Shown: positions 1,709-4,806 of the stretch, piece by piece
How the letters are laid out: the number at the start of each line of letters is the position of its first letter
Position numbering within the stretch: position 1 is the first letter of the stretch
The notes under the pieces: generated by a model
The model's input: only the letters and a program-made list of their open reading frames with translations
Told to the model about the DNA's origin: nothing
Databases searched by the model: none
NCBI GenBank assembly: GCA_963205235.1
Contig: CAUJIP010000053.1
Location: 1 to 64,000 of the forward strand
DNA length: 64,000 nucleotides
Origin: Pseudomonadota bacterium
GTDB lineage: Bacteria; Pseudomonadota; Alphaproteobacteria; Rhodobacterales; Rhodobacteraceae
Direction: 5' to 3'
Translations under genes and position numbers: made by a program

Positions 1709-2848
1709 CTACCGCTTGAACCGTTCCAGCAGCGTAACGCCGATCCCGGCGGCAAGGCCCCAGAAGGCAGCGCCGATTCCGAAGGCCGCGATGCCCGAGG
1801 CGGTCACGACCAGCGTCACGGTCGCGGGAAAGCGCCGCTCGGGTGCCGCGAAGGCCCCGCCCAAAGCGCCCATCAGGGGGCCAAGCAGGGCAAGGCCCAC
1901 AAGGGCGGCCACGACCGGCGCGGGCAGGGCGGCGAGAAGGTCAAGCACGGTCGGGCTTAGAAGTCCCAGCACGACCCAGACCCCACCGTAGGCCAGCCCG
2001 ACGATCCAGCGGCGGTCCTTGTCGGGGTGGGTGTCGGGGCCAAGGCAGATAGCAGCGGTGATCGCGGCCATGCTGACGGTATGCGCGCCGAAAAACGCCG
2101 TGACGGTGGAAATCAGGCCGGTTGTCGTCAGGGCGCGGCTGACCGGGGGTTCATACCCGGCGGCGCGCAGGGTCGCAAAGCCGGGCAGGTTCTGCGAGGC
2201 CATGGTGACAAGGTAAAGCGGCAGGGCGAGGCCAAGAAGGACCGGAATGCTGACTTCAGGCATCACGGGAACCAGAACTGGTGCCGCAAGATGAAGGGTC
2301 GAAAAGTCGGCCCCGGTCAGGACGGCCAGCAGAATTCCGGCGGCAAAGGCGGCAAGTGTTGCCATGGCGGGGTTCCAAAGCCGGACCAGCAGAAAGACCG
2401 CCGCCATCGGCAGAACAAGCGCGGGCAGGGTCTGGGCGGCGGTGCCCCCCTTCAGGCAGAAGGGCAACAGAACCCCGGCCAGCATCGCGGCGGCAATCGC
2501 ATCGGGGATGCGGGCGACCAAAGACCCAAGCGGACGGACAAGGCCGGTCGCGGTGATCAGAAGGCCGGTCACGATGAAGGCCCCGACCCCTTGGGCAAAA
2601 CTGATGCCACTTGTCGCGGCAATCAGCGCGGCGCCGGGGGTGGACCAGGCCAGCACCACGGGAACGCGGGTGGTCCAGGACAGCAGCGCCGAGCCGAAGG
2701 CCTTGCCAAGGCTGATCGCCAACAACCAACTGGCTGTCTGTTCCGCGCTTGCCCCCAGTGCTGTGGCAGCGGCCAGCAGGATCGCGACCGAGGCGGCATA
2801 CCCGACAAGGGCGGCAACTGTTGCTGAAGTGATCACCGATACGCGCAT
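1709..2848 (-). CDS. benE: BenE-family benzoate/H+ symporter-like membrane transporter
   Basis: A 379-residue polytopic membrane protein of the BenE family, whose characterised members import benzoate with protons across the inner membrane. The sequence is almost wholly hydrophobic with about 12 predicted helices. It contains the family-like segments STPGAALIA and VRPLGSLVARIPDAIAAAML and a conserved SQNLPGFATLRAAGY region. The ATG at 2848 is chosen because GGAGAG lies about 6 bases upstream and family members begin near this residue; an in-frame ATG at 2959 would add a proline-rich tail running into the sRNA array. The gene lies directly downstream of the CcsR array on the same strand, so read-through from the stress promoter is possible. 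No benzoate catabolic genes are nearby, so the substrate is inferred from family only. Confidence 0.85.
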   Translation of the reverse strand: MRVSVITSATVAALVGYAASVAILLAAATALGASAEQTASWLLAISLGKAFGSALLSWTTRVPVVLAWSTPGAALIAATSGISFAQGVGAFIVTGLLITATGLVRPLGSLVARIPDAIAAAMLAGVLLPFCLKGGTAAQTLPALVLPMAAVFLLVRLWNPAMATLAAFAAGILLAVLTGADFSTLHLAAPVLVPVMPEVSIPVLLGLALPLYLVTMASQNLPGFATLRAAGYEPPVSRALTTTGLISTVTAFFGAHTVSMAAITAAICLGPDTHPDKDRRWIVGLAYGGVWVVLGLLSPTVLDLLAALPAPVVAALVGLALLGPLMGALGGAFAAPERRFPATVTLVVTASGIAAFGIGAAFWGLAAGIGVTLLERFKR

Positions 2849-2906
2849 GCCGCTCTCCGCCAGACTGGGCGGACTATTCCGGGCTGCGCTTGCGGCTGCA
2901 AGGGGA

Positions 2907-2982
2907 AAGGCGGCGACCTCTCTGGGAGGAGGAGGGAGAGGCCGCCGCTTGTGCGGCAATCCTCGGGAGGAGGGAGAGCGCC
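2907..2982 (-). ncRNA. ccsR4: CcsR-type small RNA, fourth copy from ccaF1
   Basis: Two copies of GGGAGGAGG on the plus strand (2924-2932 and 2965-2973) read CCTCCTCCC on the minus strand. The first sits in the loop of a clear hairpin spanning about 2909-2948 (CCTCTC paired with GAGAGG, extended by GGCGGC/GCCGCC). The hairpin around the second is weak, so this copy looks degenerate. Boundaries are estimated from the hairpins. It is the last member of the array downstream of the DUF1127 gene. Confidence 0.6.
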
Positions 2983-2989
2983 GGAAAGG

Positions 2990-3061
2990 GTGGGCGACAG
3001 GGCCAGGGAGGAGGTTGGCACTGTCGCCGGATCAGGCGACCGGGAGGAGGGTGGTCGCCCG
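2990..3061 (-). ncRNA. ccsR3: CcsR-type small RNA, third copy
   Basis: Two hairpins each expose CCTCCTCCC (minus strand) in the loop. One spans 2993-3028 with a perfect 8-bp stem (GGCGACAG/CTGTCGCC) and the motif at 3006-3014. The other spans 3035-3059 with a 7-bp stem (GGCGACC/GGTCGCC) and the motif at 3042-3050. This two-hairpin layout is the hallmark of the CcsR sRNAs of Rhodobacter sphaeroides, which are co-transcribed with a DUF1127 gene and processed from its 3' side. Ends are approximate. Confidence 0.72.
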
Positions 3062-3069
3062 AAGGCTTT

Positions 3070-3085
3070 GGGGTTCAGTGACCCC
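3070..3085 (-). terminator. GC hairpin separating CcsR copies 2 and 3
   Basis: The stem GGGGT/ACCCC at 3070-3085 has a 6-base loop and, on the minus strand, is followed by AAAGCC rather than a T-tract. It may be a partial terminator or a processing signal for the end of the second sRNA. Confidence 0.4.
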
Positions 3086-3091
3086 GAATAG

Positions 3092-3163
3092 GGGCGGCAG
3101 TGCCAGGGAGGAGGAGAGGCACCGCCGCAGGATCAGGTGACCAGGGAGGAGGGCGGTCACCCG
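3092..3163 (-). ncRNA. ccsR2: CcsR-type small RNA, second copy
   Basis: Hairpins at about 3095-3127 (motif at 3106-3114; stem GTGCC/GGCAC plus flanking pairs) and 3136-3161 (motif at 3144-3152; perfect 7-bp stem GGTGACC/GGTCACC) both present CCTCCTCCC in the loop on the minus strand. The stems differ in sequence from those of the other copies while the loops are identical, which points to selection on the loop. Ends are approximate. Confidence 0.72.
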
Positions 3164-3171
3164 AAGTTTGT

Positions 3172-3186
3172 GGGGCACAAGGCCCC
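3172..3186 (-). terminator. GC hairpin separating CcsR copies 1 and 2
   Basis: The stem GGGGC/GCCCC with a 5-base loop lies at the same relative place as the hairpin at 3070-3085. No T-tract follows. Probable processing or partial termination site between sRNA units. Confidence 0.4.
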
Positions 3187-3193
3187 TAATGGG

Positions 3194-3266
3194 GGCGACG
3201 ATGTCCGGGAGGAGGGTGAACATCGCCGCATATCGCCATGGTCCCTGGGAGGAGGGCGGGACCGTG
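3194..3266 (-). ncRNA. ccsR1: CcsR-type small RNA, first copy after ccaF1
   Basis: Hairpins at about 3196-3228 (motif at 3207-3215; stem CGATGT/ACATCG) and 3237-3266 (motif at 3247-3255; 9-bp stem with one G-T pair) carry CCTCCTCCC in their loops on the minus strand. The unit begins within about 10 bases of the ccaF1 stop, so it is probably released from the 3' UTR of that mRNA. In R. sphaeroides this family helps the response to oxidative stress and heat with Hfq. Confidence 0.75.
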
Positions 3267-3273
3267 CGAATTC

Positions 3274-3489
3274 TTATTTGCCGTAGGCCGACTCGCGGGC
3301 GAGTTCCGGGATCGAGAACCGGCTGATGCCAAGATCGTTCAGCTCGCGGTCGGTCAGGTTGTTCAGCTCGGCCACCGTGCGTTCATAGATCCGACGCTGG
3401 CGGATCGCGGTCAGGACGATGTCCTTGACGCTGGAAAACCGGTCGAAAAAGCCCCTGCGGGACATCGTGGTGCTGTTTACATAAGCCAT
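3274..3489 (-). CDS. ccaF1: DUF1127 small RNA-binding protein (CcaF1-like)
   Basis: A 71-residue basic protein, the same length as CcaF1 (RSP_6037) of R. sphaeroides, a DUF1127 protein reported to bind RNA and affect maturation of the CcsR sRNAs. The C-terminal half shows the DUF1127 pattern (YERTVAELNNLTDRELNDLG followed by ISRFSIPELARESAYGK). The start is set at the ATG at 3489 (MAYVNSTTMSRRG), with GAGAGG upstream; the ATG at 3510 would add seven residues. It lies immediately 5' of four CcsR-type sRNAs on the same strand, which strongly supports the assignment. In the characterised locus the unit is driven by RpoHI/RpoHII promoters. Confidence 0.9.
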   Translation of the reverse strand: MAYVNSTTMSRRGFFDRFSSVKDIVLTAIRQRRIYERTVAELNNLTDRELNDLGISRFSIPELARESAYGK

Positions 3490-3570
3490 GACACTCAAGC
3501 CTCTCATCATTCTTTGCAGCGTTTCGTCTTGCTGTTGGGGCTAACATGCGCCTCATGCTGCAGATGCACA

Positions 3571-3577
3571 ATATGGG
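3571..3577 (-). promoter_or_regulatory. Possible heat-shock sigma -10 element for ccaF1-ccsR
   Basis: CCCATAT on the minus strand, within a run of C, matches the CCCATNT core of RpoH -10 elements and lies about 80 bases upstream of the ccaF1 start. No convincing CTTG-type -35 was found at the right spacing, so this is tentative and rests mainly on knowledge of the R. sphaeroides locus. Confidence 0.25.
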
Positions 3578-3738
3578 GGTGCCGCAATGCCGCCATGCAG
3601 CATCCGCATGGCTGACGTCACGGAAATGTCATGCATTTTGAAGCATTTCGCGGAAATTTTGAGCAAATGGTCAACGGGTCTTGCCCTTCTGCGCAAAGAT
3701 CACGACCTTAGGGCAAAGCTTAGGCAGAGGGCGAACAG

Positions 3739-4806
3739 ATGGCGGTGGATCGTGACCAGGTGATGAAGGTATTGGCCGGGGTCGCGCATCCCGGTGGCGG
3801 GGATCTGGTCAGCCGCGATCTGATTCGAGCGCTGGTCGTCGAAGGCGGGGTGGTCCGCTTCGTGATCGAGGCGGCGACACCGGATGAGGCGCGGGCGCTG
3901 GGTGGCGCGCAAGGTGAGGCCGAGGCGCGGTTGAAGGCCTTGCCGGGGGTGACGTCGGTCCAGGTGGTGATGACGGCACATGCGGCCAAGGCCCCGCCGC
4001 CCAGCCTGAAGATCGGCGGGCACCCGACACCGCAGCAGGGCGGGCCGCAGCGGATATCGGGGATCGACCGGATCATCGCGGTGGCATCCGGCAAGGGGGG
4101 CGTCGGCAAGTCGACGGTGGCCTCGAACCTTGCGGTGGCGCTGGCGCGGCAGGGGCGGCGCGTGGGGCTTCTGGACGCCGATATCTATGGGCCAAGCCAG
4201 CCCAAGATGATGGGCGTGTCGAAGCGGCCCTCCAGCCCCGATGGCAAGACCATCGAACCCCTGGTCGCGCATGGCGTGACGATGATGTCGATCGGCCTGA
4301 TGCTGAAAGAGGATGAGGCGGTCGTCTGGCGGGGCCCGATGCTGATGGGGGCTTTGCAGCAACTGCTGGGGCAGGTGGCCTGGGGCAAGCTGGACGTGCT
4401 GATCATCGACCTGCCGCCGGGGACGGGGGATGTGCAACTGACGCTGTGCCAGCGGACGCAGCTGACCGGGGCGATTGTGGTTTCCACCCCGCAGGACGTG
4501 GCGCTGCTGGATGCGCGGAAGGCCTTGGACATGTTCCAGAAGCTGAAGACCCCGGTGCTGGGCCTCGTGGAGAACATGTCGACCTATGTCTGCCCGAACT
4601 GCGGGCACGAGGCGCATATCTTCGGCCATGGCGGTGTGGCGGCCGAGGCGGCAAAGCTCGACCTGCCGTTCCTGGGCGAACTCCCCCTGGCGCTGGATAC
4701 GCGCATCGCTGGCGACAGCGGCACGCCGATTGCGGCGGGCGACAGCCCCTTGGCCGAACCCTATCTGGCACTGGCAAAACGGCTGATCGCGGGCGGGATG
4801 GGCTGA
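3739..4806 (+). CDS. mrp: Mrp/ApbC-family iron-sulfur cluster carrier ATPase
   Basis: A cytosolic P-loop ATPase of 355 residues that carries and delivers [4Fe-4S] clusters to apo-proteins. Residues 1-85 are the N-terminal MIP18/DUF59-like domain (start [13 protein letters not shown]). This is followed by a variable linker and the deviant Walker [12 protein letters not shown] near residue 115. Further on are [12 protein letters not shown], the [12 protein letters not shown] Walker B region and the cluster-binding CPNCG pair near residue 285. It stands alone here, but complex I encoded further along is a major user of [4Fe-4S] clusters and of the related carrier Ind1/NUBPL. Confidence 0.93.

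Follow-up and report, generated by a model that had tools for sequence, protein, structure and literature searches.

In the first 64,000 nucleotides (nt) of contig CAUJIP010000053.1 (assembly GCA_963205235.1, Rhodobacteraceae), the stretch that we analyzed and call the window, a short DUF1127 gene is followed on the same strand by a row of hairpins that carry one and the same loop. What kind of locus is this, and what turns it on? By its sequence we identify it as a ccaF1-CcsR operon (CIN1, cuckoo RNA), a kind already known from Rhodobacter. As for its control, we consider it quite likely that this CcsR stress operon has an RpoH-type promoter and that a LysR-type regulator resembling LsrB activates it jointly with a second locus, which encodes a SorY-like small RNA (sRNA).

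Four structured units behind ccaF1

Eight exact copies of the loop CCTCCTCCC lie on the minus strand 3' of the DUF1127 gene, from 2924-2932 to 3247-3255. Only exact sites were sought, so the exactness of the loops follows from the search design. Dinucleotide shuffles held 0.95 copies on average and 3 at most, and none of 100 reached eight. A first-pass annotation of this DNA had described eight exact loops behind a gene for a 71-residue DUF1127 protein, and that description holds. The features of the array, listed from the gene outward, are as follows.

3277-3489 (stop codon 3274-3276), minus strand: ccaF1-like gene for a 71-amino-acid (aa) DUF1127 protein (PF06568, 1.9e-11)
3191-3271, minus strand: CcsR unit 1, two hairpins, loops 3247-3255 and 3207-3215; 61.7 bits under the held-out model R1 described below
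3172-3186, minus strand: linker hairpin GGGGC/GCCCC between units 1 and 2, no loop motif; read from the sequence
3090-3167, minus strand: CcsR unit 2, loops 3144-3152 and 3106-3114; 76.9 bits (R1), 49.4 bits (RF02791)
3070-3085, minus strand: linker hairpin GGGGT/ACCCC between units 2 and 3, no loop motif; sequence and fold
2990-3065, minus strand: CcsR unit 3, loops 3042-3050 and 3006-3014; 57.1 bits (R1)
2906-2987, minus strand: CcsR unit 4, loops 2965-2973 (weak hairpin) and 2924-2932 (strong hairpin); 51.7 bits (R1) and fold

Loop-to-loop spacing inside the four pairs is 40, 38, 36 and 41. None of the 26 further CCTCCTCCC sites that the genome has outside the locus belongs to such a pair. 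The linker hairpin at 3172-3186 does not form when the 3' region is folded as a whole at minimum energy. The strong last hairpin of the array (loop 2924-2932), perhaps a terminator, is followed by CTTTCCCCTT only; a pattern scan of 2400-4400 found three terminator-like sites with a T-run, none of them at the end of the array, and a scan of the same interval for consensus sigma-70 promoters found none.

We scored the stem around each loop. From ccaF1 outward the scores were 6, 12, 11, 11, 10, 10, 6 and 11, while the 26 other sites in the genome scored 1-7, plus one 11 within a coding frame. A score of at least 10 was reached in 0 of 1600 shuffled-flank trials and a score of at least 6 in 148 of 1600, so that the first hairpin and the one at 2965-2973, both scoring 6, are not set apart by this metric alone. 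When the 5' and 3' flanks of different window loops were cross-paired, the mean score was 4.5 and 2 of 56 combinations reached 10, as against a mean of 9.6 for the true pairs (6 of 8 reaching 10); the window stems therefore vary in sequence yet still pair. Across the genus, where pairing was judged by per-hairpin stem scoring, first-type hairpins (n = 131) averaged 8.5 versus 5.6 with flanks exchanged between genomes, and second-type hairpins (n = 127) averaged 10.9 versus 7.3. Hairpins at two coding decoys (L160 and L001) were considered as lone sRNAs and rejected, both lying inside long reading frames.

A covariance model (R1) was built from an alignment (A2) of 54 units from 27 other genomes, with the source genome and its nearest relative held out. 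Thirteen of the 17 pairs in the alignment showed at least one double-sided change that preserved the pair. R1 scored the four window units at 51.7-76.9 bits, the next best match in the window at 12.1 bits, and the best of 26 decoy stretches at 20.3 bits. Searched across the genome with E up to 1, it returned the same four units and no others (150 of 3031 first-look candidates fully scored). A sequence-only version of the model gave 59.1, 42.5, 38.3 and 30.0 bits for units 2, 1, 3 and 4 in that order, so the paired structure adds about 18-22 bits per unit. The first-pass annotation had argued for selection on structure and had proposed a covariance-model search; the search has now been run, and the compensatory changes together with the held-out matches bear out the argument. 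Single CCTCCTCCC sites do occur 26 times elsewhere in this genome, which is what an origin of the array in chance G/C-rich hairpins would have in its favor. Shuffle counts, stem scores, cross-pairing and compensatory changes all speak against chance, R1 already refutes it, and we give it next to no credence. The window thus contains four structurally conserved units.

The Rfam model for CcsR1, RF02791, matched four times, at 3190-3272, 3089-3170, 2989-3069 and 2905-2988, with 29.3-49.4 bits and E values of 2.5e-5 to 2.9e-11. The gathering score of this family is 65.3; all four units miss it, which counts against the identification, and at gathering score Rfam gave no match in the window. Because they score below gathering, we file the units as CcsR-type and not as formal members of RF02791. 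Several features expected of a CcsR locus were found: CCUCCUCCC in the loops, variable but paired stems, a DUF1127 gene directly upstream on the same strand, and four two-hairpin units, although the number four is not diagnostic because copy number differs widely among relatives. A locus of like make-up has been published for R. sphaeroides (PMC10253847). The proposal in the first-pass annotation that this is a ccaF1-CcsR1-4 locus was accordingly right in kind, with the four RF02791 matches below gathering, and the locus extends a known class of sRNA.

Turnover of the units

A CcaF1-like protein was matched in 30 of the 32 genomes of the genus. Downstream sequence was available at 29 of these 30 loci (at L067 none follows the gene, and no units were taken from there), and each of the 29 carried 4 to 16 exact loops. 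In the family, at least one close loop pair was present in 298 of 394 genomes. The largest array among the fetched loci (L021/L298, G165:C1, about 334949-336520) packs 26 exact loops into about 1.2 kb, arranged in near-identical three-hairpin repeats with a DUF1127 gene and a ccaF1-type operator upstream.

Units turn over between species. Unit 1 is conserved in position, since 27 of 29 first units had another first unit as their nearest counterpart in other genomes; out of 125 units, 21 were closest to another unit of their own locus. Window unit 3 was closest to window unit 2 (0.80 identity), and unit 2 was slightly nearer to one from a different genome (0.84); unit 3 is perhaps a tandem duplicate of unit 2. 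The nearest relative, L040 (genome G422; 92% CcaF1 identity), has one unit fewer than the window. In its unit 2 the first hairpin keeps the stem GGTGACC/GGTCACC and has a shortened CCTCCTCCC loop, which suggests that either of the two can be lost without the other.

The copy nearest benE (a gene for a BenE transporter, family match 1709-2848, which flanks the array on the side opposite to ccaF1) had been credited with a single good hairpin, and folding agrees: the hairpin at 2924-2932 is strong, while at 2965-2973 part of the loop is taken up by an inner fold, which leaves no more than a short outer stem. Unit 4 might then be decaying, or serve now as a terminator only. Its weak first hairpin (stem score 6), its partly buried loop and the lowest R1 score of the four units would fit such a fate. 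Yet L040 keeps a unit of this form, which scores 55.8 bits under R1, and the loop of the weak hairpin is exact in both species, the terminal loop being the one that is altered in L040. Structure adds 21.7 bits to unit 4 of the window. Because L040 has the unit with an equally weak first hairpin, we regard unit 4 as divergent and not as freshly decaying; the decay that the first-pass annotation had suggested, like a reduction to a mere terminator, is improbable.

The operator and its candidate regulator

We aligned 30 upstream regions from the genus. Two blocks were conserved: a putative RpoH-type promoter, seen as a TTGTGC-N16-CATGT element upstream of ccaF1, and an element just upstream of it. 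These are listed here together with the gene of the candidate regulator and the divergent neighbor of ccaF1.

3566-3571, minus strand: putative RpoH-type -35 element TTGTGC, conserved in the upstream alignment; predicted sigma assignment
3544-3549, minus strand: putative RpoH-type -10 element GCATGT (CCATGT in most aligned relatives), 16-nt spacer; predicted
3588-3609, minus strand: conserved 22-bp operator ATGCGGATGCTGCATGGCGGCA, containing ATGC-N6-TGCA
3585-3599, minus strand: 15-bp box TGCATGGCGGCATTG, the reverse complement of which agrees at 14 of 15 positions with the Brucella VtlR motif CAATGCAGCCATGCA
3555-3568, minus strand: second box, TGCA-N6-GCAT, between the -35 and -10 elements and overlapping the -35
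G000:C104:17884-18786: gene for an LsrB-like LysR protein of 301 aa, beside the SorY-like sRNA
3739-4806, plus strand: ParA/NUBPL-type ATPase gene (family match), divergent from ccaF1, which we take to be of the Mrp/ApbC type

The whole element of the window reads ATGCGGATGCTGCATGGCGGCATTG (3585-3609, minus strand). The motif CAATGCAGCCATGCA has been reported as the binding motif of VtlR in Brucella (PMC12595884), and ATGC-N6-TGCA, read on the opposite strand, is TGCA-N6-GCAT, the LsrB motif of S. meliloti, which lies at -72 to -60 before NfeR1, itself a CCUCCUCCC sRNA (PMC10746234). Over the 30 genus loci the VtlR 15-mer was matched at 14 of 15 positions in 27, at 13 in two and at 12 in one. 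ATGC-N6-TGCA was found upstream in 28 of 30 loci of the genus, against 0.2% of shuffles, and in 45 of 56 loci of the family, against 0.1%, and at least one TGCA-N6-GCAT in 24 of 30 and 37 of 56, some of these at the first element. A 17-mer core was matched at 14 or more positions in 47 of the 57 family loci found by protein and in 0 of 1140 shuffles. The 17-mer and box counts omit 23 same-genus loci (L069-L091), most of which come from the same genomes as L039-L068, and the two box counts (ATGC-N6-TGCA and TGCA-N6-GCAT) also omit L133 on the same grounds, hence 56 family loci and not 57. The promoter thus carries a conserved operator.

Transcription is estimated to start near 3537, which would center the boxes near -55 to -66 and -25. 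An upstream box combined with one near -25 is the usual arrangement for LysR-type regulators. The intergenic stretch 3588-3738 is common to ccaF1 and the divergent ATPase gene, and further upstream the blocks TTGACC, GCTCAAA and TCATGACATTTCCGTGAC are conserved in the genus. As regards the operator form TGCATRGCNGCATTG in R. sphaeroides, the 80 named loci included no record named for that species.

An alternative is that the CcsR operon is under RpoHI/RpoHII only and that the palindrome belongs to another regulator, for example PhaR, whose R. sphaeroides site has been described as CTGCNNNGCAG (PMC12542648). PhaR was the first candidate for the operator. The genome has a PhaR-family gene, and CTGC-N3-GCAG occurs upstream in 49 of the 80 named loci; the window element, however, reads CTGCATGGCGG, with GCGG in place of GCAG, and we rejected the candidate. 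At ccaF1 almost every locus has the center AT(G/A), and most retain the asymmetric CATTG flank, whereas the two CTGCNNNGCAG sites that this genome has by a phaR-type gene fragment have the center AGT; and the other operator sites of the genus adjoin a LysR gene, not pha genes. PhaR is disfavored because a VtlR box, unlike a PhaR site, explains both the AT(G/A) center and the CATTG flank, and we think ownership by PhaR or a similar outsider a poor prospect. The two sites by the gene fragment (L206, 924 and 951, G000:C15) are tandem CTGCAGTGCAG palindromes upstream of the fragment at a contig end, and are probably the true PhaR sites of the source genome.

Our preferred candidate, the LsrB-like LysR protein, is indicated by where else the operator occurs. 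In the genus the 22-mer ATGCNNWTGCTGCATRGCRGCA was present in 51 copies in 31 of 32 genomes, and the reversed pattern in none. Twenty-five copies lie by ccaF1 and 26 before a SorY-like sRNA, and a LysR gene adjoins 25 of these 26 (in the remaining one, G419:C270, the contig ends too early to tell). The source genome has one copy of each kind, at C53:3588-3609 and C104:18790-18811; it has six DUF1127 matches, and only the copy at ccaF1 adjoins a DUF1127 gene. Reading the operator in this way yields a sharp prediction, namely two kinds of operator place in the genus. With a slightly looser pattern, 225 of 394 family genomes had a copy and the reversed control gave 0. At 30 family operator loci among the matches listed, CCTCCTCCC loops followed downstream in 29 and a DUF1127 open reading frame (ORF) was next in 28 (by a hidden Markov model; 7 of 30 by the strict pattern). 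In another genus (L316, G307:C10:1489476-1489497) the operator precedes a DUF1127 ORF with no loops within the 3 kb fetched, which recalls the several DUF1127 genes under VtlR in Brucella.

The best relative of the LysR protein in the PDB was 9hh1 (8.4e-71; next 4.1e-29), the A. tumefaciens LsrB structure (PMC11975290). It was the single match at 1e-40 in the source genome (16 of 33 candidates scored), and a class-wide sample of 142 genomes gave matches in 83. At the 28 LysR loci outside the family, a thioredoxin-reductase signature (CATCDG) lay just upstream in 25, and CCTCCCTGT lay downstream on the same strand in 20, within about 420 nt in 18; on the other strand and upstream, CCTCCCTGT was found at 0 of 28 each. 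This arrangement resembles that of rhizobial lsrB and Brucella vtlR: trxB-lsrB is described for Rhizobiales (PMC11975290), abcR stands beside lsrB (PMC8844928), and trxB-vtlR has abcR2 near by (PMC12595884).

The sRNA beside the LysR gene matched SorY with 49.8 bits (E 1.9e-9) and SorX with 42.8 bits (E 1.8e-9). Like SorY and SorX of R. sphaeroides (RF02651, RF02784) it has ACCUCCCUGUUGGAC and a terminator stem, but it scores below gathering for both (49.8 of 111; 42.8 of 46.6). The ar15 (AbcR) model gave no match over 385 genomes, 14 controls among them, and so carries no weight. In many genus members a short reading frame (..LRTSLLDLAERKLGLFF-like) runs over the conserved core of the SorY-like sRNA (L207, 1083-1159, and relatives), and conservation of the RNA probably accounts for it.

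Several observations weigh against joint control by this regulator. The R. sphaeroides promoter has been assigned to RpoHI/RpoHII (PMC10253847). No exact copy of the operator was found in 169 of the 394 family genomes, including the loop-pair genome G210, in which both the LysR gene and the SorY-like sRNA are present; the sRNA-side operator was seen within the genus only; and a LysR match was found at 0 of 3 second operator sites from other genera (L316, L317, L319). A class-wide scan with the 15-mer gave 21 sites in 17 of 142 genomes and was uninformative, the 20 sites outside the source genome having no CCTCCTCCC loops and, by the strict pattern, no DUF1127 gene. Within 6 kb of the LysR gene no trxB signature was found in three genomes of the genus and one other family genome; a MurI-like ORF lies upstream of it in the source genome. 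Finally, the protein has one cysteine (190), and the four cysteine positions of Agrobacterium LsrB are occupied by Val, Val, Val and Ala.

LysR proteins free of cysteine made up 19 of 21 in the genus and 20 of 27 among the class relatives (27 of the 28 were counted; L243 was not parsed). Since cysteines are lacking at the four LsrB positions, the protein is unlikely to sense redox state in the rhizobial manner, and we file it as LsrB-like and not as a redox-sensing LsrB. Common ancestry and a common operator appear better supported than a common redox signal.

Action of the loops and comparison with known systems

The following course of events would fit these data. A minus-strand transcript would run from the promoter through the DUF1127 gene and the four two-hairpin sRNA units to the strong terminal hairpin, and, by analogy with R. 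sphaeroides, RNase E would cut it with the help of the DUF1127 protein. Each unit would present two CCUCCUCCC loops, which may pair with the ribosome-binding sites of mRNAs and block their translation. Encoded elsewhere in the genome, the LsrB-like LysR protein would bind the VtlR/LsrB-like operator and switch on the ccaF1-CcsR array and the SorY-like sRNA together, on top of the RpoH-type promoter. CcsR1-4 and SorY are reportedly under stress sigma factors (PMC8307010), to which the activator would add a second input.

The likeness of the loops to the anti-Shine-Dalgarno tail, raised in the first-pass annotation, is plausible, and NfeR1 of S. meliloti is reported to pair with a start site, its three loops being functionally redundant seeds against start sites (PMC10746234). 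In the source genome, among 26 full GGGAGGAGG complements outside the locus, none stands at a convincing start codon, and the two of the 26 with an ATG 3-13 nt downstream that opens at least 60 aa were not judged convincing gene starts either. Targets, if they are mRNA start sites, therefore need shorter pairing. The same result could be taken to mean that the loops mainly bind protein (DUF1127, ribosomal or another RNA-binding protein) as a sponge, and the repetition of one loop along the transcript (4 to 16 times at 29 genus loci, 26 times at a family locus) and the binding of RNA by CcaF1 (PMC10253847) would suit that function. Against a sponge, mutation of the three loop motifs of NfeR1 abolishes silencing of ntrB (PMC10746234), and flhR mRNA is a reported target of CcsR1-4 (PMC8307010). 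We judge a sponge unlikely, and pairing with mRNA remains the preferred action.

We infer LsrB-type control of CcsR. Regulators of this family are reported to act on comparable genes: VtlR of Brucella turns on three DUF1127 genes together with AbcR2, a CUCCC-type sRNA (PMC12595884); in Agrobacterium, VtlR directly activates abcR1 (PMC7486931); and LsrB of S. meliloti turns on NfeR1, a CCUCCUCCC sRNA (PMC10746234). One activator for both sRNA loci is the simplest reading. Two translation-blocking sRNA systems would then be coupled to one signal, and the CcsR operon would answer to a specific transcription factor as well as to the heat-shock sigma factors. Joint control would also account for the repeated appearance of DUF1127 genes and of CCUCCUCCC or CUCCC-type sRNAs among LsrB/VtlR targets in rhizobia and Brucella. 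In the literature covered, which did not include the original CcsR, CcaF1 and cuckoo papers, we found no link of CcsR or CcaF1 to LsrB or VtlR; among the matches listed, CcaF1 and LsrB occur together only in PMC12501420, where, in the excerpt, LsrB figures in a reference title only.

The nearest known counterpart is the ccaF1-CcsR1-4 locus of R. sphaeroides (RSP_6037; CIN1; RF02791). Both have a 71-aa DUF1127 protein, four two-hairpin CCUCCUCCC units, a terminal hairpin and a putative RpoH-type promoter. The window differs in that its stems depart from the RF02791 consensus, all units falling below the gathering score, and an LsrB/VtlR-type operator goes unmentioned in the excerpts of the R. 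sphaeroides CcsR literature. NfeR1/ar14 of S. meliloti (RF02344) shares the CCUCCUCCC loops, the variable stems and an LsrB box, TGCA-N6-GCAT, in the promoter, and RF02344 matches the window locus below gathering; but NfeR1 is a single three-hairpin sRNA with its own promoter, whereas here the hairpins form a cluster in the 3' untranslated region behind DUF1127.

With the Brucella VtlR regulon and Agrobacterium LsrB/VtlR the likeness lies in an operator identical at 14 of 15 positions and in targets that combine a DUF1127 gene with a neighboring CUCCC-type sRNA. The VtlR-target DUF1127 genes of Brucella are not described with CCUCCUCCC arrays in the excerpt at hand, and the regulator of Agrobacterium and Brucella adjoins trxB, while the LysR gene here is away from trxB and its product is without the four cysteines. 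LsrB was stated in 2025 to be unique to Rhizobiales (PMC11975290), a statement that joint control would contradict. With reservations for the lack of a trxB nearby and of redox cysteines, the present data argue against such a confinement. We lean, somewhat less firmly than to joint control in this genome, to the view that an LsrB/VtlR-type circuit is ancestral to much of Alphaproteobacteria and did not arise in rhizobia, and that in Rhodobacteraceae a regulator devoid of redox cysteines drives the DUF1127-CcsR anti-Shine-Dalgarno array and, in this genus, a SorY/AbcR-like sRNA through a nearly unchanged VtlR box.

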